This document shows, in pieces, positions 43,017 through 54,965 of a stretch of 64,000 nucleotides of DNA. The stretch spans positions 1 to 64,000 of the forward strand of contig JAUIKY010000008.1 of assembly GCA_030430535.1 (NCBI GenBank), given 5' to 3'. The notes under the pieces are model-generated. The model did no database searches, was not told where the DNA came from, and saw only the letters and a list, made by a program, of their open reading frames with translations. Every line of letters begins with the position of its first letter. Position 1 is the stretch's first letter. A program made the translations under genes and the position numbers. Origin of the DNA: Bacteroidia bacterium. Its GTDB lineage: Bacteria; Bacteroidota; Bacteroidia; Flavobacteriales; Flavobacteriaceae.

Positions 43017-43048
43017 GTTTTATTGTTAAGGCGTAAAACTTATATTTG
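43017..43048 (+). promoter_or_regulatory. Predicted promoter of the glycan locus
   Basis: TATATTTG at 43041-43048 is a perfect -7 element, with a GTTTTATTG word about 20 bases upstream. It lies 22 bases before the wza-like ATG and after the divergent ABC-F gene, so it is the best candidate for the start of the operon. Confidence 0.55.
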
Positions 43049-43070
43049 CTTTAAATCAATGTGCCTCAAT

Positions 43071-43859
43071 ATGAAGAACCATTTTATTGTGTCTTTGCTG
43101 GTTATAGCTATGTTTTCAGTATCATGTATTTCCAACAAAGATATTGTGTACTTGCAGGACAAAGGTACGGCTATTGATTCTTTAGCGATTAAGGCACTTT
43201 ACAAGCCTTATCGTGTGCAGGTTAACGATATTTTGAGCATTAATGTGAAAGCCCTGGATCCAGAATTGGTTGGGATTTTTAATCCGGTTGAGCGTGCAAA
43301 TGGAGCAAATACAAGTGGGGGCGGACTTTATTTTAACGGTTTTACGGTAGATTTGCACGGTAACATTGAATTCCCCATTTTAGGAAAAATAAATGTTCTT
43401 GGTTTTACCGTTAAGGAGATAGAGGATAAAGTTGAACGTGAGCTGCTGTCGCAATATTTTAAGGATACCGCCGAAATTTTTGTTACGGTTAAACTGGCCG
43501 GATTGCGCTATACTACCGTTGGCGAAGTGGGTACAGGCGTGCACACGCTGTTTCAAGATCGTGTGAATATTATTGAAGCATTGGCCAATGCGGGAGATAT
43601 TGCACAAACTGGCGACCGAAAGGATGTTTTGGTGATTCGGCAATACCCCGATGGACAAAAAATCCATCACATCGATTTAACCGATATTAAGGCTATGCAA
43701 TCGCCTTACTATTACATTCAGCCCAATGATATTATTTTGGTGAAGCCTTTAAAACGTAAAGCCTTGGGGGCGGGACAAACGGCCATTCAAAACGTAACAA
43801 CAATTGCTTCTATCTTGTCGGTGTTGGTTTCCACTTATTTTTTAACAAAAAATCTGTAA
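43071..43859 (+). CDS. Wza-like polysaccharide export lipoprotein
   Basis: 262 residues from the ATG at 43071, giving MKNHFIVSLLVIAMFSVSC with a lipobox; an earlier in-frame start would add 16 residues before the signal. VQVNDILSINVKALDPELVG is the start of the polysaccharide export (Poly_export) domain, FTVDLHGNIEFPILGKINVL the core, and YTTVGEVGTGVHTLF a SLBB-like unit. The C-terminal hydrophobic stretch (TTIASILSVLVSTYFL) may span the membrane. It forms the outer-membrane pore for polysaccharide. Six bases precede the Wzc gene. Confidence 0.88.
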   Translation: MKNHFIVSLLVIAMFSVSCISNKDIVYLQDKGTAIDSLAIKALYKPYRVQVNDILSINVKALDPELVGIFNPVERANGANTSGGGLYFNGFTVDLHGNIEFPILGKINVLGFTVKEIEDKVERELLSQYFKDTAEIFVTVKLAGLRYTTVGEVGTGVHTLFQDRVNIIEALANAGDIAQTGDRKDVLVIRQYPDGQKIHHIDLTDIKAMQSPYYYIQPNDIILVKPLKRKALGAGQTAIQNVTTIASILSVLVSTYFLTKNL

Positions 43860-43865
43860 GGGAAA

Positions 43866-46343
43866 ATGGAAGAAGAGTTTGAAGTATCAGAAGGCCAATC
43901 GTCGTTTTCCTTTGATGTCAAGGCATTTTTATTTCGGGTTTTAAGTTATTGGAAACTGTTCGTGCTTTTTATTGGTGTCGGGGTTTTTATCGTTTACCAA
44001 CAGAATATCAGAACCCAGCAATCGTACCGCTTAGGGACTCAAATTTCAATAGAGGAAGCATCCAATCCTTTGTTTACTTCGAACACCAGTCTAACTTTTA
44101 ATTGGGGTGGTGTTTCTGGTAAAGTACAAACGATGATGACCTCATTAAGGTCGCGTTCCATTCACGAGGAAGTAGTTGATAACCTTCAGTTTTACATCAC
44201 TTATTTAAAACAATCACGTTTCAGAAAAGACGATATTTACACCTATGCACCGTTTCGGGTAGATTTAGCCCCGAATACTTTTCAGGTGTTGAATACTCCA
44301 ATTAAAATCACTTTCCTTGGCGAAGAACGGTATCAACTGTCATTTAACTTAGAAGAAGAAACCGTTAAGGGAACCCAGAATTTCAGTAACAAGAAAAAGG
44401 GCAGTATCACAATACCGGCCGGAGGGTTCACGCAACAGTTTAAGCTGAACGATTGGGTGGAAACACCATACTTTAGCGGTGTGGTAACTTTGGCGGACGA
44501 TAAAACCGTAGAACCAAACGATGAATACTTTTTCATGTTCAGTAACTTTGATGCGGTGGTTTCAAAATACCGTAATAAGCTGTCTATCGACAACCCAAGG
44601 AATTCGGCCATTCTAAACTTGAGTATGGTAGATGTCAATAAGGCTAAAATTGTAGATTATTTAAATGAAACCGTTCAGGTTTTAAGTGATGAACAACTTG
44701 AGCGCAAAAACCAGTTTGTAACCAATACCATTAACTTCATCGACCAGCAGTTGGAACGGGTGAAATCGCAATTGGTGCTGAATGCCGATTCGTTGAATAA
44801 TTATAAGCAGAAGAATAAAATCTTCAACTTGAATAACGAAGCGGAAGCCATCAATTCAAAAATCATCGAATTAGAAAACCAGAGGGATAACAATATTCAA
44901 AGGTTAGCTTATTACTCAAGTTTAAAAACCTATTTGGAAACCAGTGATTCGTTTACAGAACTTCCTGCGCCAGCTGTTGCAGGAATAGATGATGGTAACA
45001 TTGTTTCGAATATATCGAAAATCAATGCGCTATCAGTTCAAAAATCTCAATACGGTGCCACCGTAAGGAAAGATGCCACGATTTTCGCCGACCTGAACCG
45101 TCAGATAGATGGTTTAAAATTGGTGCTTTTGGAGAACATTAGTTCGGTAACCAATGAAATAAGGAGAGAGCAACAAACCATAAGTTCAAAAATTGCTGCT
45201 GAAGAGGCCAAAATAAGGAAGTTGCCCGTGGCGCAGCAAAAATTGTTCGATATTCAAAGGCAATATACTTTGAGTGAGCAAACTTATAATATGTTCTTGT
45301 CCAAACGGGGTGAGGCCGATATTATTAAATCGGCAACAGTATCCGATATTGTTGTGATTGATAAAGCCAAAGACACCGGGGCTACGCCAATAGATTTAAA
45401 ATTAAGTTCACGTTATTTATTCGCCATTATTGGTGGTGTTTTACCTCCGCTGTTATTGGCGTTTTTAATCACTTTTTTTGATAATAAACTCCATAATCCG
45501 CAGGTTCTGGAAAATTTATCGAAAATCCCTATTTTGGGTGTGGTCGGTAAAAACAATGCAGAGAACAATTTGGCTGTTCATTTAAAACCCAAATCGACCA
45601 TAGCCGAGGCGTTTCGTTCCATACGTTCCAGTTTGCAATACTTTTATAAAAATAGAGGCATTGACGGAACCAAAACCATTATGGTAACATCGACCGTTAG
45701 TGGAGAAGGCAAAACCTTTTGTTCAATCAATCTCGCTACGGTATTGGCCATGAGCGGTAAAAAGACCGTGTTGGTAGGATTGGATTTAAGAAAGCCCAAG
45801 ATATTTGGCGATTTCGATATTTCGAATGATACAGGTGTTGTTAATTATTTAATCGGTCAGAAGGAATTGAGTGAGGTATTGGTTAATAGTAAGGTGCCCA
45901 ATTTGGATGTGATAACCTCGGGGCCCATTCCGCCAAACCCATCTGAATTGCTTATTGGCGAGTACATTGATAAATTAATGTCTGTTTTAAAACAATCTTA
46001 CGATTATATTGTTTTGGATACACCACCAATTGGTCTGGTGGCTGATGCGTTTGAGCTTGTTGAATATGCCGATGCCACGGTTTATGTAGTTAGACAAGAT
46101 TACACCAAAAAAGGCATGTTAAACCTGATTAACTCCAAGTACGAGAAAGGTGAAATTAAAAATATAAGTTTTGTCTATAATGGCTATAACCAAAAAGGAA
46201 AGTACGGCTATGGTTATGGCTATGGCTATGGTTACGGCTACGGTTATGGTAGTTATGGCAATGGATATAATGACGACGGTAACCCTAAAAAGAGTTTTAT
46301 GGGAAGACTGAAACGTTTTTTTAATTTGATATCCAAAAGTTGA
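43866..46343 (+). CDS. Wzc-like polysaccharide co-polymerase and tyrosine autokinase
   Basis: 825 residues. Two membrane helices (about 32-50 and 515-535) flank a large periplasmic coiled-coil Wzz/GNVR region. The cytoplasmic BY-kinase domain has Walker A SGEGKT with G613-T617, Walker A' VLVGLDLRKPKI and Walker B YDYIVLDTPPIGLV. The C-terminal tail carries eight consecutive YG pairs from Y780 and two further tyrosines, the autophosphorylation cluster of such kinases. It controls length and export of a surface glycan with the Wza-like protein upstream. Confidence 0.92.
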   Translation: MEEEFEVSEGQSSFSFDVKAFLFRVLSYWKLFVLFIGVGVFIVYQQNIRTQQSYRLGTQISIEEASNPLFTSNTSLTFNWGGVSGKVQTMMTSLRSRSIHEEVVDNLQFYITYLKQSRFRKDDIYTYAPFRVDLAPNTFQVLNTPIKITFLGEERYQLSFNLEEETVKGTQNFSNKKKGSITIPAGGFTQQFKLNDWVETPYFSGVVTLADDKTVEPNDEYFFMFSNFDAVVSKYRNKLSIDNPRNSAILNLSMVDVNKAKIVDYLNETVQVLSDEQLERKNQFVTNTINFIDQQLERVKSQLVLNADSLNNYKQKNKIFNLNNEAEAINSKIIELENQRDNNIQRLAYYSSLKTYLETSDSFTELPAPAVAGIDDGNIVSNISKINALSVQKSQYGATVRKDATIFADLNRQIDGLKLVLLENISSVTNEIRREQQTISSKIAAEEAKIRKLPVAQQKLFDIQRQYTLSEQTYNMFLSKRGEADIIKSATVSDIVVIDKAKDTGATPIDLKLSSRYLFAIIGGVLPPLLLAFLITFFDNKLHNPQVLENLSKIPILGVVGKNNAENNLAVHLKPKSTIAEAFRSIRSSLQYFYKNRGIDGTKTIMVTSTVSGEGKTFCSINLATVLAMSGKKTVLVGLDLRKPKIFGDFDISNDTGVVNYLIGQKELSEVLVNSKVPNLDVITSGPIPPNPSELLIGEYIDKLMSVLKQSYDYIVLDTPPIGLVADAFELVEYADATVYVVRQDYTKKGMLNLINSKYEKGEIKNISFVYNGYNQKGKYGYGYGYGYGYGYGYGSYGNGYNDDGNPKKSFMGRLKRFFNLISKS
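46203..46250 (+). repeat. Eight tandem TAYGGY hexamers coding for the YG tail
   Basis: Eight in-frame hexamers (tacggc, tatggt and variants) encode alternate Tyr-Gly. Codon changes break exact identity, but slippage could still change the tyrosine number. Confidence 0.85.
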
Positions 46344-46359
46344 TTTGAGTTTGAATAGT

Positions 46360-47157
46360 ATGAGGGATTTACTTTTAAAAGCTATGGAAGCTGCTGTATT
46401 GGCGGGTAATGAAATAATGAAAGTATATTCGAGGGAGTTTAAAGTGGTTTTAAAGTCTGATAACTCACCACTAACATTAGCCGATGAAAAAGCCAATACC
46501 GTTATTAATAGAGCATTAAAAACCACCAACATCCCGATTATAAGTGAGGAAAATGCAGAGGTTCCATTTTCAGAAAGAAAAACGTGGAAAAGATGTTGGG
46601 TGGTCGATCCATTGGATGGCACCAAGGAATTTGTGAATAGAAACGGAGAATTTACAGTTAACATAGCCCTGATTGAAAACGGTCTGCCTATTTTAGGGGT
46701 CATTTATGTGCCGGTTGCCAAAACGCTATACTATGCAATAGTTTCAGAAAACAGAGCTTATAGAACAGTTTTGGATAATCATCAGGTTTCGGAAGTCGTT
46801 TTTGAAAATAGTGACATCATCAAACCAGAGAGTAAACCGAACCAGGAGCTAAAAGTGGTGGCCAGCCGTTCGCATCTCAATGATGAAACCGAAGCCTTTA
46901 TAGACGATTTAAAGTTAAAGGGTGAAAATGTTATGATAGTTTCAAAAGGAAGCTCATTAAAATTTTGTCTGTTGGCAGAGGGTGAAGCACATGTTTATCC
47001 TAGGTTTGCCCCTACCATGGAATGGGATACCGCTGCGGGACATGCCATTTGTAATGCCGTTGGAGTGCAAGTTCGCCTGGTGGACACTGAAAGAGATTTA
47101 AGATACAACAAAGAAAATTTGTTAAACCCTTATTTTTTGGCCAAAACAGTAGTATGA
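46360..47157 (+). CDS. cysQ: 3'(2'),5'-bisphosphate nucleotidase CysQ
   Basis: 265 residues from the ATG at 46360; TTG codons upstream are less likely. Hydrolyses 3'-phosphoadenosine 5'-phosphate (PAP), the by-product of sulfotransferases and of PAPS reduction. Motifs of the inositol monophosphatase superfamily: ISEENAEVPF, then WVVDPLDGTKEFVNRNGEFT with the metal-binding DPLDGT, and APTMEWDTAAGHAI. Placed between the kinase Wzc and CysC, which it overlaps by 4 bases. Confidence 0.92.
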   Translation: MRDLLLKAMEAAVLAGNEIMKVYSREFKVVLKSDNSPLTLADEKANTVINRALKTTNIPIISEENAEVPFSERKTWKRCWVVDPLDGTKEFVNRNGEFTVNIALIENGLPILGVIYVPVAKTLYYAIVSENRAYRTVLDNHQVSEVVFENSDIIKPESKPNQELKVVASRSHLNDETEAFIDDLKLKGENVMIVSKGSSLKFCLLAEGEAHVYPRFAPTMEWDTAAGHAICNAVGVQVRLVDTERDLRYNKENLLNPYFLAKTVV

Positions 47158-47738
47158 AAAACAACATTAAGCAAGATTACGCAATTGGGCAAAGCGATAG
47201 GGAGGCTTTAAATAAACATAAACCCTGTTTGGTTTGGTTTACAGGCTTGTCGGGGTCTGGAAAGTCGACTATAGCCAATTTATTGGAAAAGGAATTATAC
47301 AAACAAGGCATCCACACTTACACCTTAGATGGTGATAATTTGCGACGTGGATTGAATAAGGATTTAAAATTTACCAAAGAAGACCGTGTAGAAAATTTAA
47401 GGCGAACCGCCGAAGTGGGAAAGCTGTTTGTCGATGCTGGATTCGTGGTTTTGGCTGCATTTATTACGCCTTATAACGAAGTTCGGAAAAGCATAAGAAC
47501 TATTGTTGGCAATGAAAATTATATTGAAGTGTTTGTAAATACTCCTTTGGAAGTTTGTGAACAGCGCGATGTAAAAGGGTTGTATAAAAGGGCACGGGCA
47601 GGAGAGGTTAAAAATTTCACGGGAATCAGTTCGCCTTTTGAAATACCGAACAATCCAACTATCGAGATTCAAACCCTGAAAGAAAGTCCGGAAGAGGCTG
47701 TAAAAAGAATTTTAAAACTGTTAGAGAGCAAAATTTAA
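47154..47738 (+). CDS. cysC: Adenylylsulfate kinase CysC
   Basis: 194 residues. Phosphorylates adenosine 5'-phosphosulfate to PAPS, the donor for sulfotransferases. The P-loop FTGLSGSGKSTIANLLEKEL, TLDGDNLRRGLNKDL, FTKEDRVENLRRTAEVGKLF and YKRARAGEVKNFTGISSPFE are classical. The ATGA overlap with cysQ suggests translational coupling. No sulfurylase or PAPS reductase gene is in the window, so supply here seems directed to sulfate transfer rather than cysteine synthesis. Confidence 0.95.
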   Translation: MKNNIKQDYAIGQSDREALNKHKPCLVWFTGLSGSGKSTIANLLEKELYKQGIHTYTLDGDNLRRGLNKDLKFTKEDRVENLRRTAEVGKLFVDAGFVVLAAFITPYNEVRKSIRTIVGNENYIEVFVNTPLEVCEQRDVKGLYKRARAGEVKNFTGISSPFEIPNNPTIEIQTLKESPEEAVKRILKLLESKI

Positions 47739-47752
47739 TCGAAAACTATTCA

Positions 47753-48598
47753 ATGCCATTGGAAACCAAAATATACCAAAAGGAGAACAACTTAAAGATT
47801 AGTAAGTTGTTAAATACTGTTGTGTCCGATATGCTGTCTTCGAGATTTTTGGCCACCCAATTGGCGGTTCGGGATATCAAGGCGCAATACCGCCAATCAT
47901 ATTTGGGTATTCTCTGGATGTTTATAACACCTTTGGCCACGGCTTTTGTATGGGTGTTTCTTAATAGTACCGGAACGGTAAAGCTAACTGATACCGGCGT
48001 GCCCTATCCTGTTTATGCGTTTTCGGGAACACTAATTTGGGCTATTATAAAAGAAGCCATTAATATGCCCATGGCGAGTACTAATTCAGCACGTTCTATT
48101 TTAACAAAAATTAATTTCCCAAAGGAAGCCTTGATTGTTTCAGGGGTTTTTAAGTTGTTGTTTAACAGTTCAGTAAAAGTGTTGTTGCTCATCATTTTTA
48201 TTTTTGCTTTTGGGATTGGGTTCCATTGGTCCTTATTGTGGTTGCCCCTAACTATTTTGGCGGCAGTTGTTTTTGGCGTTACTTTAGGGCTTTTTTTAAC
48301 TCCAATTGGTATGCTTTATACCGATGTTGGTAAATTTATAAATTTTGCTTTGGGCTTTTTTATGTACATTACACCCGTAGTATATGCCATCCCGAAAGAA
48401 GGCATCATGAAAACGATTATGGTTTGGAATCCGTTTACCCCGTTTATATTGACCACACGCGATTTGGCCTTGGGTTTACCCCCTGAGCATTTAACATATT
48501 ATGCTGTCTTGCTGCTATGTTGCGTGCCTTTATTGGGTTTGGGACTGGTGTTTTACAGGGTGTCCATACCCATTATTGTGGAGCGGATGAGCGCATAG
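47753..48598 (+). CDS. Wzm-type ABC transporter permease for polysaccharide export
   Basis: 281 residues with about six membrane helices. ATQLAVRDIKAQYRQSYLGI is the cytoplasmic start typical of the ABC-2 polysaccharide exporters (TagG/Wzm/KpsM), and MYITPVVYAIPKEGIMKTIM and WNPFTPFILTTRDLALG are family segments. It moves a lipid-linked glycan across the inner membrane with the ATPase at 48754. Confidence 0.92.
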   Translation: MPLETKIYQKENNLKISKLLNTVVSDMLSSRFLATQLAVRDIKAQYRQSYLGILWMFITPLATAFVWVFLNSTGTVKLTDTGVPYPVYAFSGTLIWAIIKEAINMPMASTNSARSILTKINFPKEALIVSGVFKLLFNSSVKVLLLIIFIFAFGIGFHWSLLWLPLTILAAVVFGVTLGLFLTPIGMLYTDVGKFINFALGFFMYITPVVYAIPKEGIMKTIMVWNPFTPFILTTRDLALGLPPEHLTYYAVLLLCCVPLLGLGLVFYRVSIPIIVERMSA

Positions 48599-48698
48599 GC
48601 CCCGCTTGGACCCTACCCGAAGCGAAGGGAGTTAGAAAGCTGGGAATAGATTATGAATAAAAAAATATAAAATATCGGAGTTTGATTTCAAAATATGT

Positions 48699-48740
48699 TA
48701 TTCAGAGCGATAGCGAGGAATCTCATCGATATAAATTAGA
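48699..48740. repeat. Fragment of the dispersed GAGCGATAGCGAGGAATCTC repeat
   Basis: ttattcagagcgatagcgag and gaatctcatcg resemble half of the element at 58019. It occupies the 155-base gap between permease and ATPase genes, which are normally contiguous. Confidence 0.45.
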
Positions 48741-48753
48741 AGTCTAAAAAAAA

Positions 48754-49980
48754 ATGTCTAACACTATACCATCAAAATCAGAAAACGAAGTTCTCGTTAA
48801 GGTAGAAGGTTTAAGCAAAAAGTTCTGTAAAGACCTTAAAACCAGTCTATGGTATGGCGTAAAGGATTTGCTTACCGGTATGGGGGGCAACAAAAACGAC
48901 CGTGAGTTGCGCCCTAAAGAATTTTGGGCGGTTAAGGATGTAAGTTTTGAATTGCGCCGTGGCGAATGTTTGGGTTTGATTGGGCACAATGGCGCAGGAA
49001 AAAGTACCTTGTTAAAAATTTTAAACGGACTCATCAACCCCGATGCGGGTAAGGTTACTATAAAAGGCCGTGTGGGTGCGTTAATAGAATTGGGGGCCGG
49101 TTTTAATCCTATTTTAAGTGGGCGCGAAAATATTTACAACAATGGCGCTGTTTTGGGCTTCAGCCGAAAGGAAATCACAGAAAAACTAGACGATATTATT
49201 GCTTTTTCTGAATTAGAAGAATTTATCGATATGCCCGTTCAAAATTATAGTAGTGGGATGAAAGTACGTTTGGGTTTTGCCGTAGCCGCCCAAATGGAAC
49301 CCGATGTGTTGATTATTGATGAGGTTTTGGCTGTGGGGGATGTTAGTTTTAGAATGAAATGTTACAATAGAATTAATGAATTGTTAAAAGAAGTAGCAAT
49401 TATTTTTGTGTCTCACTCCATGCCTCAAATAGCCAAATTATGTACTTCTGCAATCATGCTTAGAAGAGGGGAGGTAAAAGCAAATTCTAATGACATATCA
49501 AGTGTTATCAACCAATATTTTTTCGATAGTAACGTTGAAAGTAAAGAACTGGTAAGTGGTAGTGGGAAGGCAACTTTGGCTAAAAGGAACTTTGATAATT
49601 CAAAATTAAACGTAATTGAAAAGGGAAGTACAATAAATTTGGGTTTTGATTTGAAAATTGATTTGACTACCAAGTATTTTAGCGTAAGAGGTATCATTTA
49701 TGATAAAGAGTTTAAAGGGTTATTGGAAATCAATGCATTGCATTCTGGACAGTTTTTTAAAAACGAAAACGGGTTAAATAATATAAATATATCTTTCATA
49801 AACCCTCTCAATCATGGAGATTTTACAATGACTTTAGTAATTTTTCAGGTCAATGAAATAGGGCAAATAACAGAAAGACTTTTACGTCATGAAAGTTTTT
49901 TTCAATTTAAGAGTATATCAGGTATTGGATTTGATTCCTATATCCCAATTAGTGTGGAAGCTAACATAAATCACAAATAA
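48754..49980 (+). CDS. Wzt-type ABC transporter ATPase with C-terminal cargo domain
   Basis: 408 residues. The nucleotide-binding half has LGLIGHNGAGKSTLLKILNG, LIELGAGFNPILSGRENIYN, signature YSSGMKVRLGFAVA and Walker B VLIIDEVLAVGD. The last 150 residues (from about 250) form a beta-rich Wzt-C domain (KGSTINLGFDLKIDLTTKYF), which in related exporters binds the modified non-reducing end of the glycan. That predicts an end-capped chain. The A+T rises from about here on. Confidence 0.9.
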   Translation: MSNTIPSKSENEVLVKVEGLSKKFCKDLKTSLWYGVKDLLTGMGGNKNDRELRPKEFWAVKDVSFELRRGECLGLIGHNGAGKSTLLKILNGLINPDAGKVTIKGRVGALIELGAGFNPILSGRENIYNNGAVLGFSRKEITEKLDDIIAFSELEEFIDMPVQNYSSGMKVRLGFAVAAQMEPDVLIIDEVLAVGDVSFRMKCYNRINELLKEVAIIFVSHSMPQIAKLCTSAIMLRRGEVKANSNDISSVINQYFFDSNVESKELVSGSGKATLAKRNFDNSKLNVIEKGSTINLGFDLKIDLTTKYFSVRGIIYDKEFKGLLEINALHSGQFFKNENGLNNINISFINPLNHGDFTMTLVIFQVNEIGQITERLLRHESFFQFKSISGIGFDSYIPISVEANINHK

Positions 49981-49983
49981 AAA

Positions 49984-50574
49984 ATGGGTGCATTTTTAAT
50001 GAATAATCCGAAATGTGTTTTTGTACATATTCCAAAAGCCGCAGGAACAACAATACGAAAAGGAGTTTTCAAAGAAGATTATCTAGGGCCGGTATTTAGA
50101 AGTATACCAGAGGATTGGTCTCCGTATTTTAAATTTACATTTGTAAGAAACCCTTATGATAGAATGGTTTCTGCTTGGAAGATGTTTACAGAAGGAATGG
50201 AAAAATCTAAATGGGCTTATAACAATGAGCCTCCATTAAAAAATATGAGTTTTATAGATTTTTTAAAAATTGCTGTAGATGATTCAATTGATTATCACTC
50301 CAGAAACTCTGTAGAAAGTGTTTTAAGGCATCATACTTTGCCACAAATTCACCCTTACCATTGCTTTATGGATTTAGATTTTATAGGAAGATTTGAAAAT
50401 TTTGAAGATGACTTTGCCCTTGTAGCTAAGGAAATAAGTTTAAAAAATTACGAACTAGGCCATTTGAACAAAACAAAAAGAATTCATTATAAAGAATACT
50501 ACGACAATGAATCATTTGAATTGGTTACAGATAATTACAAAGAAGATTTAGAAAGCTTCGGATATAGCTTTTAA
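49984..50574 (+). CDS. Sulfotransferase family protein (PAPS-dependent), first
   Basis: 196 residues, soluble. CVFVHIPKAAGTTIRKGVF is the 5'-phosphosulfate binding loop (residues 11-29) and FTFVRNPYDRMVSAWKMF the 3'-phosphate binding motif, as in the sulfotransferase 2/chondroitin-type group. The ATG at 49999 is an alternative start. It sits 4 bases after the Wzt-like gene. With CysC and CysQ in the same cluster, transfer of sulfate to the glycan is likely; the acceptor position is unknown. Confidence 0.85.
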   Translation: MGAFLMNNPKCVFVHIPKAAGTTIRKGVFKEDYLGPVFRSIPEDWSPYFKFTFVRNPYDRMVSAWKMFTEGMEKSKWAYNNEPPLKNMSFIDFLKIAVDDSIDYHSRNSVESVLRHHTLPQIHPYHCFMDLDFIGRFENFEDDFALVAKEISLKNYELGHLNKTKRIHYKEYYDNESFELVTDNYKEDLESFGYSF

Positions 50575-50575
50575 T

Positions 50576-51532
50576 ATGAAAAACCATAGCGCTAAAGAAT
50601 ATTATTCAAATCTTAAAAAAGAACAAATAAATTGCCCTGTTTGCGATAGTAGTAATTATAAGGTTCTTGCAAATCAAGATAGGTACGGTATGGGTTTGCA
50701 ATCTGTTATTTGTACCAATTGCAGTATGATTTTTATAAATCCGAGACCTACGGAGTTAGAGATGAACGATTTTTATAAGAATCACTATCGGTCTTTTTAT
50801 GAATCTGTAGAAAAACCAACTTCCGAATATATTAACAATGGCCCATTTATAGCAAGAGCTAATTATGTAAAAAATGTTTTGGGCAACTATCTTTATAATG
50901 CAAAGTCGGTTTTAGATGTAGGTTGTGCAGAAGGAACTCTCTTATTAACAATAGAGAAAGGTTTTCCAAATATTACAACCCAAGGCATTGAACCTAGCTT
51001 GAGTTTTGGAGCATATGCAAAGCAACAGTTAAAAGGAGAGGTGTTTATTGGTTCATATCAAGAGTTTATAAAGAAAAATAATAATAGAACATTCGATGTT
51101 TTAACTTCAACACATGTTTTGGAGCATATTTTAAATCCAAAAGAATATTTAAGTGAATTAAAAAAAATGATGCATAACGAAAGTGTGCTTTATGTTGAAG
51201 TCCCAAATATTATGGATAAAAGAGTAAATGGTTTGGGTGCTGTGCATTTAGGACATGTACTTTCTTTTGATGCGTTTACTTTAAAAAGGCTTTTGAATGA
51301 TTGTGGTTTTGAGATTCTTGAAATTTTTATGGATGATTTACCAGCGAAAACTCCCGCAATGGCTGTTATTTGTAAAGTTGGCAATCCTATTAATAAAAAG
51401 TGTTCCCTATCAAAAAAGGATATTAAAAATAAAGAATCTTTGTTCAAGGAAAGGGTGCTAGGTGAAAACTTGAACAAATCAATAATCTCGAAGATAAAGA
51501 AAAAACTTAAGCTGTATGTCAAGAGTTTTTAA
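50576..51532 (+). CDS. SAM-dependent methyltransferase with N-terminal zinc-ribbon-like motif
   Basis: 318 residues. CPVCDSSNYKVL and CTNCSMIFINPRP form a four-cysteine N-terminal module, followed by the class I fold: SVLDVGCAEGTLLLTIEKGF (SAM loop) and DVLTSTHVLEHILNPKEYLS, typical of methyltransferases in polysaccharide clusters. It may methylate a sugar or the chain end. The last 17 bases overlap the next sulfotransferase gene. Confidence 0.85.
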   Translation: MKNHSAKEYYSNLKKEQINCPVCDSSNYKVLANQDRYGMGLQSVICTNCSMIFINPRPTELEMNDFYKNHYRSFYESVEKPTSEYINNGPFIARANYVKNVLGNYLYNAKSVLDVGCAEGTLLLTIEKGFPNITTQGIEPSLSFGAYAKQQLKGEVFIGSYQEFIKKNNNRTFDVLTSTHVLEHILNPKEYLSELKKMMHNESVLYVEVPNIMDKRVNGLGAVHLGHVLSFDAFTLKRLLNDCGFEILEIFMDDLPAKTPAMAVICKVGNPINKKCSLSKKDIKNKESLFKERVLGENLNKSIISKIKKKLKLYVKSF

Positions 51533-52463
51533 AAGCAAGTCTAAAAATCATTTCTTAATCTCCGCGCCACGCTCAGGTAGTACATGGCTACAAACCATGT
51601 TTAATGCCCATCCTAAATTGGTATGCGTAGAGCGCCGGTTGTTTGGTAATTATGCCGATTTGGTTTTGGATGATGGTATAAAAACACCAAGGTTGCGGGT
51701 AACTTTAGATAAGTATGTCCAAAGTTTATTGCTCCACCATGGTTATCCTCAAAAAGAGCATAAAAAGCTAACAAATATTTTTATAGATTCATTGCTGAAA
51801 GCAGAACAAAACGAACTGGGCAAAAGGCATGTGGTAGATAAAATAACGCCATACGTACATACTTCACAAATAGTTGTTGAGCAAATTCAAAATTATTTTC
51901 CAAAGTCAAAGGTTATCTTTTTGGTTCGAGACGGCCGCGATGTTTTAACCAGTGGTGTTTTTCATTGGTTCAATAAGCAGCCAGCCAATGCAATTTTGTC
52001 CGATTTTGAAAAGAAGCGTCGGGCTTATTTTATAAATGGGGAAGGCCAACGTCCAAACCGATTTTTTCAAGACCATGAAATAGAGCAGTGGGCCAACGAG
52101 TGGCAGCAACCTTTGCAAACTATTGAGTCCGTTCAAGAAAAACACAAAGTAGAGATAATTACTTACGAAAACATGTTGGAAGACCCACAAACCGTATTGC
52201 GGTCGTGCTTTCAGTTTTTTAAGGTGAACCGTTCCGAAAAAACACTAATTGCCTGTTTGCAAGCAGGAAAATTTAAAGCTATGAGCCAAGGACGGGAGCG
52301 GGGTGAGTCAAAAGCTAATGCCCATGTTCGTAAAGGGGTTTCTGGCGACTGGCAAAATTATTTCACTTACCAAGACGGAAAGTTATTTCAAGAGATTGCA
52401 GGTGAAATGTTAATGAAATATGGGTATGTTACATCGAGTGCATGGTATGAGGAACTTAGATGA
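51516..52463 (+). CDS. Sulfotransferase family protein (PAPS-dependent), second
   Basis: 315 residues. LISAPRSGSTWLQTMFNAHP is the 5'-phosphosulfate loop (15-34) and VIFLVRDGRDVLTSGVFHW the 3'-phosphate site, placing it in the sulfotransferase 1/3 group. It differs from the first sulfotransferase, so two different positions may be sulfated. VDKITPYVHTSQIVV lies in the acceptor region. It overlaps the previous gene by 17 bases. Confidence 0.88.
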   Translation: MSRVFKSKSKNHFLISAPRSGSTWLQTMFNAHPKLVCVERRLFGNYADLVLDDGIKTPRLRVTLDKYVQSLLLHHGYPQKEHKKLTNIFIDSLLKAEQNELGKRHVVDKITPYVHTSQIVVEQIQNYFPKSKVIFLVRDGRDVLTSGVFHWFNKQPANAILSDFEKKRRAYFINGEGQRPNRFFQDHEIEQWANEWQQPLQTIESVQEKHKVEIITYENMLEDPQTVLRSCFQFFKVNRSEKTLIACLQAGKFKAMSQGRERGESKANAHVRKGVSGDWQNYFTYQDGKLFQEIAGEMLMKYGYVTSSAWYEELR

Positions 52464-53847
52464 AAAAGCCTATGATATTGTTTGTAATTGGTATAAAGCT
52501 ACAGGTTTTAACCCTGTTTATAATGGTATTGATTACAGTTTGATTATTCGGTTTTATTTATGGGATAAGGTAGGAAGAGCACTTAGGTTATATCATGACA
52601 ATACAAGTAAAGAAACTATAACTTACAAAAAAGATTTGTTTAGATATTCTTTTTATCATACTCCCATTGTTTCTAATGGTAAGTTTAAAAAAAGTTTCTG
52701 GAACAAAAGTAAGATAATATATTCTCCATTTATAGTTCCCGATTATTTAGAGAATGGGTTTAAAGTCAACAGGAAGTTTAAATTGTTAACCAATACAAAT
52801 AATTATTTAAGTAAAAAAAGACAAATTAGGTCTCCAAAAATACAAGAAGACTATTGGTATAAGGATTTAACAAAAGCACTGTTAAAAAGCTTGGAAGAAT
52901 TAGAGGTACACTTAATTTCTGAAGACATCTTGCTTCTTGAAAAACAGATTTTGGGAACATTTAAAATTACACTCTTAGCTTTGACTGAATTAGAAAAATA
53001 CAGGCCACATGGCGTTTTTGTATATTCAGATAATCACCCTCCATTCATTAATTATGTTTTGGCAGCAAAAAAACTTGGAATTCCTACTTTTACCTATCAA
53101 CATGGATTAGATTGTGAACATTATTATTTAGATGATTGCTTTGCTGATTTTGTAGCGGTTTGGAGTGAAAATCGTAAAAACCGTTATGTTAAAGATTCTC
53201 TTTTTCAACCAAAAAAGTATGAGATAGTAGGAAGTGTAAAGCATGTTTCTCGGTCAAATAGAATAGACGAGGACAAAAATATAAATGCAACTGATGATAC
53301 CAAGACTTTACTTTTTATAACAAGGCCACATCATCCAATCAAGTGTTATTCTCCCAGTAGAAGCTTTTTGGAAGGAACTGAAATACTAAAAGTTATTTTA
53401 CAATTTATGGAATTAAATAAGGATGTAAACTTAATTGTGAAACCGCACCCTTCTGATTTGGTATTTAATTATAAAGATTTGGTAAATGATTTTGGAGAGC
53501 ACGATAGGGTAACTTTTTCAAAAGCTAGTTTGTCATCTTTGATTAAAAAAGCACGTGTTGTTATAACAGAGGATTCAACAGCGGGAGTGGAAACTATGGG
53601 ATTCAATAGGATAGTTATTCATACACATTTTGCTAACACAAGACCAGTATTGCCTTTAGTGCAACGAAAATGCGCTTTATCAGGATATAATATCGAAGAT
53701 TTAAGAAAAAGTCTTGAAAAGTGCTTTTATTTAGATGATGAAGAAATAAAGACAATGAGTAAAAATCAAGATTGTTTTTACAGTGAATATATTCCCGAGT
53801 TTAGTAAGGAAAAATTAATAAATTTTGTTGAACAAAATATATTATGA
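52447..53847 (+). CDS. GT-B-type surface carbohydrate biosynthesis protein
   Basis: 466 residues from the ATG at 52447; an in-frame ATG at 52420 is possible but overlaps the upstream gene more. Soluble. Residues around KLGIPTFTYQHGLDCEHYYL, LIVKPHP and ITEDSTAGVETMGFNRIV form the C-terminal nucleotide-sugar site of GT-B-type enzymes of the capsule synthesis/CDP-glycerol transferase group. I cannot name the sugar. Very AT-rich codon use. Confidence 0.7.
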   Translation: MRNLDEKAYDIVCNWYKATGFNPVYNGIDYSLIIRFYLWDKVGRALRLYHDNTSKETITYKKDLFRYSFYHTPIVSNGKFKKSFWNKSKIIYSPFIVPDYLENGFKVNRKFKLLTNTNNYLSKKRQIRSPKIQEDYWYKDLTKALLKSLEELEVHLISEDILLLEKQILGTFKITLLALTELEKYRPHGVFVYSDNHPPFINYVLAAKKLGIPTFTYQHGLDCEHYYLDDCFADFVAVWSENRKNRYVKDSLFQPKKYEIVGSVKHVSRSNRIDEDKNINATDDTKTLLFITRPHHPIKCYSPSRSFLEGTEILKVILQFMELNKDVNLIVKPHPSDLVFNYKDLVNDFGEHDRVTFSKASLSSLIKKARVVITEDSTAGVETMGFNRIVIHTHFANTRPVLPLVQRKCALSGYNIEDLRKSLEKCFYLDDEEIKTMSKNQDCFYSEYIPEFSKEKLINFVEQNIL

Positions 53848-54965
53848 AAATACTCTTTATATCACACGAAACCACCCTAACGGGGGCGCCCAAAGTCCTT
53901 TTACTTTTTTTAAAATGGGTTAAGGCCAACCGAAAGGACGTTGTTGTGGATGTATTGACACTTCGGGGAGGGAATTTATCAGAAGAGTTTAAGCATTCAT
54001 GTAATCATTTTTATGATTTTAGTGCATTAACTCAATATAAAAAGCCAAGTCTTTTTGAGCGAATTTTGATGAAATTCAGATTTAAAAAAAAGAAAGATTT
54101 AAAAGAAAAATGGATTGGAGTATTATCGTCAAACCACTACGATGTTATTTATGCTAATAGTATACCATCATTAGAGGTGGCGGTAACTCTTAAAAGACAA
54201 TCAAAATTCGCAAAGCTTTTACTTCACCTTCATGAGTTGGATACTGTTTTAAATATGTATCTTAATAAAAGCGAAAATACATTATGCGATGTAAACCAGT
54301 TTATAGCGGCATCAAGTATAGTAAAAGCTAACTTGGTAGATAATTGGGACGTAGAAAAGAATAAAATTGAAGTCGTTTACGAGTTTTCTGAGGTTAGCCA
54401 AGTTGATTTAAAAAGGCAATCAAAGCAATTCGTTGTAGGTGCCTCAGGCACAGTAGAAACAAGAAAAGGTACTGATGTTTTTATTCAAATAGCCAGGTTG
54501 GTCAACAAAACAAATCCAGATAGCAACATAAAGTTTGTATGGGTTGGAAAGGACACTAAAGAAAGTTACGTGCAAGGGGATTTAAAAAAGTTAAATCTAA
54601 TCAATAGTGTTAAGTTTGTTGGTGAACAAACAAACCCTATAAATCATTTTAATGAGTTTGACATCTTTTTAATGACTTCTAGAGAAGATCCATTTCCTTT
54701 AGTGTGTATAGAAGTAGCCAATCTTAAAAAACCAATAATTTGTTTTGAGGGAGCTTCTGGAACACAAGAAATTTTAGAGCACGGAGGAGGTTACGTTGTA
54801 CCTTATTTCGATGTAGAAGCAATGACAGAAAAGATTATGTTCTATTTTAATAATCCAGAAGCAGTTGCTGCAGATGGGCAAAAGGCTCAACAACTTTTTT
54901 CTAAGTTTACTCCAGAGCAATCGTGCCCTTTAATTTATAAAATAGTGGAGGATATGGTAGAATAG
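53844..54965 (+). CDS. Family 4 (GT-B) glycosyltransferase
   Basis: 373 residues. MKILFISHETTLTGAPKVLL is the N-terminal Rossmann start with the TGAP motif, FVVGASGTVETRKGTDVFIQ opens the C-terminal domain, and TSREDPFPLVCIEVANLKKP with ASGTQEILEHGGGYVVP is the nucleotide-sugar binding E-x7-E region of GT4. It overlaps the preceding gene by 4 bases. Confidence 0.9.
   Translation: MKILFISHETTLTGAPKVLLLFLKWVKANRKDVVVDVLTLRGGNLSEEFKHSCNHFYDFSALTQYKKPSLFERILMKFRFKKKKDLKEKWIGVLSSNHYDVIYANSIPSLEVAVTLKRQSKFAKLLLHLHELDTVLNMYLNKSENTLCDVNQFIAASSIVKANLVDNWDVEKNKIEVVYEFSEVSQVDLKRQSKQFVVGASGTVETRKGTDVFIQIARLVNKTNPDSNIKFVWVGKDTKESYVQGDLKKLNLINSVKFVGEQTNPINHFNEFDIFLMTSREDPFPLVCIEVANLKKPIICFEGASGTQEILEHGGGYVVPYFDVEAMTEKIMFYFNNPEAVAADGQKAQQLFSKFTPEQSCPLIYKIVEDMVE

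Follow-up and report, generated by a model that had tools for sequence, protein, structure and literature searches.

The stretch of DNA analysed here, called the window throughout, comprises 64,000 nucleotides (positions 1 to 64,000 of the forward strand of contig JAUIKY010000008.1, Bacteroidia bacterium assembly GCA_030430535.1, Flavobacteriaceae) and carries a wzc-type gene whose predicted product, a polysaccharide tyrosine kinase, ends in eight consecutive Tyr-Gly dipeptides encoded by a tandem array of TAYGGY hexamers. The features of this gene and its upstream neighbour are as follows, with conservation given among 185 distinct orthologs from the same family.

43023..43859, plus strand: OPX/Wza-type polysaccharide export protein, directly upstream of wzc (Pfam Poly_export PF02563, 57.2 bits against a cutoff of 28)
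43866..46343, plus strand: wzc-type gene, a PCP-2a polysaccharide co-polymerase with a C-terminal BY-kinase, 825 amino acids (TIGR01007, AAA_31, phmmer)
45606..45626, plus strand: ExxRxxR motif EAFRSIR, residues 581-587 (E, R and R in 184 of 185 orthologs, the remaining row being a gap)
45696..45716, plus strand: Walker A motif VSGEGKT, residues 611-617 (Lys616 in 185 of 185)
45765..45800, plus strand: Walker A' motif TVLVGLDLRKPK, residues 634-645 (Gly638 at the first Asp position and Asp640 at the second, both in 185 of 185)
45999..46028, plus strand: Walker B motif YDYIVLDTPP, residues 712-721 (D718 in 185 of 185)
46203..46250, plus strand: (TAYGGY)8 array, encoding (Tyr-Gly)8 as residues 780-795, with seven overlapping YxY steps
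46251..46268, plus strand: SYGNGY, with the further tail tyrosines Y797 and Y801 (similar xY(G/A)NGY ends occur in many relatives)
46269..46340, plus strand: acidic, then basic C-terminal end NDDGNPKKSFMGRLKRFFNLISKS (comparable ends occur in many relatives)

By its domain, its Walker A and B motifs and its tail, the predicted protein is of the Wzc/BY-kinase kind, as an earlier note made from the letters alone had proposed. The 825-residue protein matches the NCBIfam polysaccharide tyrosine-autokinase model TIGR01007 at 158 bits (cutoff 108) and Pfam AAA_31 at 50.7 bits (cutoff 27), while the GNVR match is weak (23.5 bits, under the cutoff of 27.7). Compared with solved structures by phmmer, its best matches are Wzc entries, for example 7nhr (E 2e-44), with an alignment spanning residues 204-354 and 434-794. 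We take 7nhr, 9exo and the other structures matched to be those of the PCP-2a BY-kinase Wzc of E. coli K30, 7nhr presumably being its octamer. The P-loop kinase domain, the Tyr-rich C-terminal tail with ten tyrosines, the fused co-polymerase part and the adjoining OPX gene are thus all present.

At the DNA level, the array consists of eight exact TAYGGY units on the plus strand, in frame with the ATG at 43866, and places a tyrosine at every second position from Y780, with two further tyrosines behind it, just as had been noted. The units run TAC GGC / TAT GGT / TAT GGC / TAT GGC / TAT GGT / TAC GGC / TAC GGT / TAT GGT, and so comprise four hexamer types with a single pair of identical neighbours: the protein repeat is perfect and the DNA repeat is imperfect. 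Tandem Repeats Finder reports 46203-46250 with a period of 18, 2.7 copies, 86% match and a score of 75. Across the assembly, a 3.6-Mb draft of 110 contigs and 98.8% completeness, the pattern TAYGGN repeated four times is found in this array only (5 overlapping hits), and the same pattern read backwards gives 0 hits. An antisense open reading frame (ORF) of 194 codons (window 46119-46703, minus strand) overlies the array; it may be mechanical in origin, since TAYGGY units are free of stops in two of the three antisense frames.

The tail was compared across genome collections that hold one genome per species, so that all comparisons of unit number are between species. In protein searches, matches came from 318 of the 397 family genomes (E 1e-60) and from 106 of the 395 phylum genomes (E 1e-50). 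From the family matches, the best-scoring places listed were used; of 217 loci fetched, 28 duplicates, three paralogs (L002, L006 and L007) and one locus without a match (L003) were dropped, leaving 185 distinct orthologs that are 40-100% identical to the window protein. A further set of 40 more distant homologs comprises 39 from outside the family, taken as one region each from 39 of 65 matching genomes (in G500 the second-listed match was used), and one from the same family (L238). A FastTree tree was built from the protein minus its tail, with a total of 41.35 substitutions per site and two short rows (L077 and L081).

Tyr-Gly runs of at least two units are present in 184 of the 185 orthologs, whose named hosts include Algibacter, Flaviramulus, Flavivirga, Lacinutrix, Tamlana, Hyunsoonleella and Seonamhaeicola. 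The tail is therefore not peculiar to the source organism, and the window is an ordinary member of its family. The longest pure run ranges from one to 11 units, with a mode of eight in 85 of 185 (one unit in 1 ortholog, two in 5, three in 7, four in 12, five in 10, six in 17, seven in 24, eight in 85, nine in 13, ten in 9 and 11 in 2), and the number of YxY motifs per tail has its mode at seven, likewise in 85 of 185. Among the distant homologs, runs of at least three units occur in 34 of 40 and of at least five in 24 of 40. The idea that other Wzc proteins have a looser tyrosine cluster thus fits the tail of 7nhr, SSYYRYGHNHYGYSY, but fails for the protein's own relatives.

Unit number shows strong phylogenetic inertia, not constancy. 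Eight units are found in 21 of the 23 orthologs that are at least 70% identical to the window protein (identity bands were drawn for the first 119 orthologs, those added later all being under 60%), and a sister genome with a 91% identical protein also has eight, in a different codon order. On the tree, the counts require 67 changes, whereas 100 shuffles of the labels give a mean of 95 and never fewer than 90. Disjoint nearest pairs have equal counts in 4 of 7 cases at tree distances below 0.05, 6 of 9 at 0.05-0.1, 16 of 21 at 0.1-0.2, 9 of 16 at 0.2-0.3, 10 of 22 at 0.3-0.5 and 5 of 17 beyond. The earlier note had held that a copy number constant in all relatives would speak against its proposal; the counts among the 185 orthologs show no such constancy.

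The order of synonymous codons within the arrays departs from chance. In the 160 arrays with at least five units, shuffling within each array leads to an expectation of 569 identical adjacent Tyr codons and 392 identical adjacent Gly codons; of 1069 pairs each, only 485 (z -6.1) and 313 (z -6.0) are identical, and 0 of 1000 shuffles went as low. By codon series, 233 lie below expectation, 66 above and 15 at it. Even codons taken from different species agree more often than adjacent ones do (Tyr 0.535 vs 0.456, Gly 0.363 vs 0.303). In the 133 arrays with at least seven units, for which a profile over unit distance was computed, 50 have no identical neighbours at all (about 28 expected). Over the 160 arrays, Gly codons two units apart are identical in 414 of 909 pairs against 334 expected, a 12-bp rhythm that suggests past 12-bp duplications.

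These arrays come close to being independent, because species less than 90% identical have little Gly codon order in common: at aligned positions of eight-unit arrays, Gly codons match at 0.38-0.42 (0.36-0.39 by composition), and only in pairs above 90% identity does the match rise to 0.46 (0.36 by composition). Inheritance of one codon order was rejected as an explanation on the same ground. Resampling of 62 clusters over the 133 arrays leaves an adjacent deficit of -0.090 for Tyr (interval -0.125 to -0.052) and -0.073 for Gly (interval -0.109 to -0.036). All five of the largest 70% clusters show the deficit, with ratios of 0.66-0.92, and random picks of one array per cluster (single linkage at 70%, 24 clusters) give a mean z of -2.8 when Tyr and Gly are combined. 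Codon scrambling is a statistical effect at the level of the family and does not hold for each single array; the window's own array does no more than agree with it.

Several other causes of such a pattern were considered. Tyr and Gly codons elsewhere in wzc show no adjacent deficit (z -0.24 and -0.74). General short-range codon anti-repetition was rejected, as same-residue pairs two apart share their codon about as often as expected both in wzc outside the array (3885 of 9008 vs 3927 expected, ratio 0.99) and in 243 flanking ORFs (2502 of 5286 vs 2430 expected, ratio 1.03). Directly adjacent same-residue pairs likewise show no deficit in flanking ORFs (z -0.64). RNA structure was rejected, real and codon-shuffled arrays folding alike (mean z -0.06 over 160 arrays), and so was local context as the cause, on weak pair tables. 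In simulations, each a single run with hand-set parameters, one to three units were duplicated or deleted blindly, or slippage was made to depend on homology; adjacent identity then rose or stayed at about the between-array level, whereas a penalty on adjacent identity combined with rare 12-bp duplication gave a profile that resembles the data. From codon order we infer selection against identity between repeat units; a similar pattern might also arise if slipping arrays were preferentially lost and tail length was then selected.

The closest described system is Wzc of E. coli K30, which shares with the window protein its domain order, its Walker A and B motifs, its C-terminal Tyr-rich tail and its Y-x-Y spacing. 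In a report on that protein (PMC11986026), the tail reaches into the active site of the neighbouring subunit and is phosphorylated from the C-terminal end onward, a pocket holding the tyrosine two before the one in the active site and so ordering the tail. The same text states that the octamer dissociates after the fourth phosphate is added, that tail phosphorylation times ring assembly and disassembly and thereby regulates polymerisation of the surface polysaccharide, and that filling the gap in the ladder of a 3YE mutant (N711Y) restores capsule to about the wild-type level (PMC11986026). Residue E675 of the E. coli pocket is proposed to reject phosphotyrosine. According to another study, no single tyrosine of the Wzc tail is essential or sufficient (PMC8285477). 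The K30 ladder is gapped at N711 and less regularly spaced, while the window protein has eight rungs in strict succession. Within Flavobacteriaceae, Wzc orthologs from Algibacter, Flaviramulus, Lacinutrix, Tamlana and others have the same ladder, modal eight and similar flanking residues, and no notable difference was seen between their tails and that of the window. No description of a Tyr-Gly ladder tail turned up in the literature searched, which covers part of the field's papers.

Taken with these parallels, the evidence makes us lean, somewhat beyond even chances, towards the reading that the array encodes an unbroken YxY ladder which serves a Wzc-type BY-kinase as its autophosphorylation tail, that about eight steps are selected, and that the DNA is guarded against slippage. 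With seven overlapping YxY steps and a small residue between the tyrosines, a ladder is the most economical reading of the anatomy. Each tail would reach into the neighbouring subunit of a kinase ring, and the regular spacing of the tyrosines, one in every two residues, would bring the next tyrosine to the same place for each phosphorylation step. Phosphate would be added stepwise until the charge loosens the ring, which a phosphatase would then reset. Phosphate cycling is plausible because the assembly has a low-molecular-weight tyrosine phosphatase gene (one, on another contig, 126 bits); CpsB/CapC had no match in the assembly. Selection in Flavobacteriaceae would maintain about eight steps, and synonymous codon differences between neighbouring units would make the repeat harder to slip while the protein stays regular. 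The array is a real, conserved, functional-looking feature, and within the family its repeat appears to be protected from slippage and not run by it. The more specific proposal, that the Bacteroidota tail is a measured ratchet track of near eight steps working with a pocket unlike that of E. coli, the Flavobacteriaceae gene being kept non-repetitive against slippage, strikes us as possible but rather doubtful.

Two known phenomena bear on the DNA side of this reading. Selection against slippage-prone repeats in coding DNA is described for mononucleotide runs genome-wide in E. coli, yeast and worm (PMC1378130); there too, synonymous choice avoids repeats while the protein is kept, the difference being that the present case concerns a hexamer array at one locus, seen in 160 distinct sequences. 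Staphylococcal serine-aspartate repeats (PMC3324548) are similarly a bacterial two-residue protein repeat made from tandem DNA; they lie in surface adhesins, and that paper has their variation as its theme, whereas here the repeat forms a kinase tail with the same count in most nearest relatives.

A number of observations weigh against the ladder reading in one or another of its parts. On the kinase side, the E. coli pocket residues Glu675 and Ser679, mapped through the phmmer alignment to Wzc, are replaced in 185 of 185 orthologs, the former by a methionine (Met751, window 46116-46118) and the latter by Ile, Val or Leu. A ratchet using the same contacts is impossible here because of these two replacements, and any ratchet would have a pocket built differently from that of E. 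coli. The Walker A' motif, whose consensus is hydrophobic-D-x-D-x-R, keeps its second Asp and its Arg in 185 of 185 orthologs and has Gly in place of the first Asp in all of them, another difference from K30 Wzc. Interruptions of the ladder changed a Gly in 15 cases and lost a Tyr in 9, so that Tyr is not clearly spared.

On the count side, three of the seven closest pairs (tree distance below 0.05) differ: in L197 and L198 a run is split by a point substitution, L173 and L175 have 7 and 8 units, and L117 and L126, with 99% protein identity, have 8 and 10 units and so differ in length by 12 bp, in frame, the codons to either side matching. On the codon side, the effect is weak among the window's nearest relatives (22 arrays, ratios 0.93 and 0.92) and mixed in the next three 70% clusters listed, of three arrays each (0.61-1.20), and greedy 70% identity subsets (39 arrays) give z values no stronger than -1.4 and -1.1. 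In 4 of 133 arrays, against about two expected, five or six successive units are identical. In close pairs with equal counts, Tyr codons match less often in the array than in the rest of the gene (26 of 54 vs 217 of 314, and 34 of 86 vs 331 of 473), a sign of extra turnover in the array, although codon make-up differs too; array Gly codons turn over about as the rest of the gene does. Some short-range avoidance also exists in wzc apart from the array, where directly adjacent same-residue pairs (160 orthologs) share their codon in 3531 of 8477 cases against 3728 expected (z -4.65), and among 13 residues tested there Asp (z -2.5), Ser (-2.5) and Thr (+2.3) depart mildly. Finally, the adjacent deficit is absent from the 24 arrays of distant homologs, one of them from the family (Tyr z -0.2, Gly -0.5, unit +0.6). 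These show instead an 18-bp rhythm (unit z +2.6 at three units), and repeat expansion is plain in some distant loci, L254 having eight TATGGG units in a row and L237, L218 and L221 clear 18-bp unit repeats.

Some of these same facts would suit the explanation offered by the earlier note, in which slippage adds and removes hexamer units within populations, and tyrosine number and polymer output are tuned thereby. In its favour, counts do vary from 1 to 11 units between species, three of the seven closest pairs differ, one of them (99% identical) by 12 bp in length, Gly likeness two units apart suggests past 12-bp duplications, and a handful of arrays have five or six successive units identical. 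Variation of unit number between species is supported; a slippage switch is not. Eight units are present in nearly all orthologs of at least 70% identity, the tree holds fewer changes over its 41 substitutions per site than shuffled labels would give, and adjacent units resemble each other less than chance predicts, contrary to what marks a pure repeat prone to slippage; the window's array itself, with its four hexamer types and one identical neighbouring pair, is not a near-pure DNA repeat. We regard tuning by slippage as quite unlikely. Neutral repeat turnover, in which the tail need only be rich in Tyr and Gly, its length and codon order drift as blocks duplicate and points change, and the count of eight reflects descent and not selection, would account for the inertia of the count, its wide range in the family, the 12-bp and 18-bp rhythms and the extra turnover of Tyr codons. 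It is nevertheless unlikely, as adjacent identity lies under the between-species level, a result that simulated copying did not produce, and the run persists in all but one of the orthologs although its codon order has turned over.

A translational cause, with alternating codons chosen for decoding speed or tRNA supply along the repeat, could draw on the codon usage of the array, where, over 119 orthologs, Gly is shifted to GGC/GGT and Tyr to TAC relative to the rest of the gene. In bacteria, TAT and TAC are normally read by a single tRNA, as are GGT and GGC, so alternation within either pair would not change the tRNA used, which counts against this cause; moreover, Tyr and Gly codons elsewhere in the gene do not alternate. 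We consider it very improbable. Under the preferred ladder reading, the range of 1-11 units across species is a natural series in which it is directly testable whether the number of steps sets polymer output, and codon scrambling offers a way to study, at one gene and across many nearly independent lineages, how stable a functional protein repeat is.

Beyond the tail, the first Asp of Walker A' has been changed lineage-wide at a kinase motif (the Gly638 codon lies at window 45777-45779). In the 43 further loci (the three paralogs and the 40 distant homologs), a search expression that fixed the second Asp and the Arg gave 41 hits, with G at the first position in 24, E in 13, D in 3 and S in 1. 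A second BY-kinase gene in the same assembly (L002, G000:C81:4-1170), cut by a contig end, has a short tail, NFGYGARYGYY, and such a second kinase is also present in two congeners (L006 and L007).

Directly behind wzc, window 46345-52463 holds cysQ, apsK, an ABC exporter gene pair that resembles Wzm/Wzt below the NCBIfam cutoffs, and two sulfotransferase genes (49984-50574 and 51516-52463). Together these genes suggest a sulfated polysaccharide that is made by an ABC-exporter route beside the Wza/Wzc pair. Further downstream, an A-rich stretch with a run of eight A (window 54078-54110) lies within a glycosyltransferase gene (53844-54965) and is a possible slippage site.

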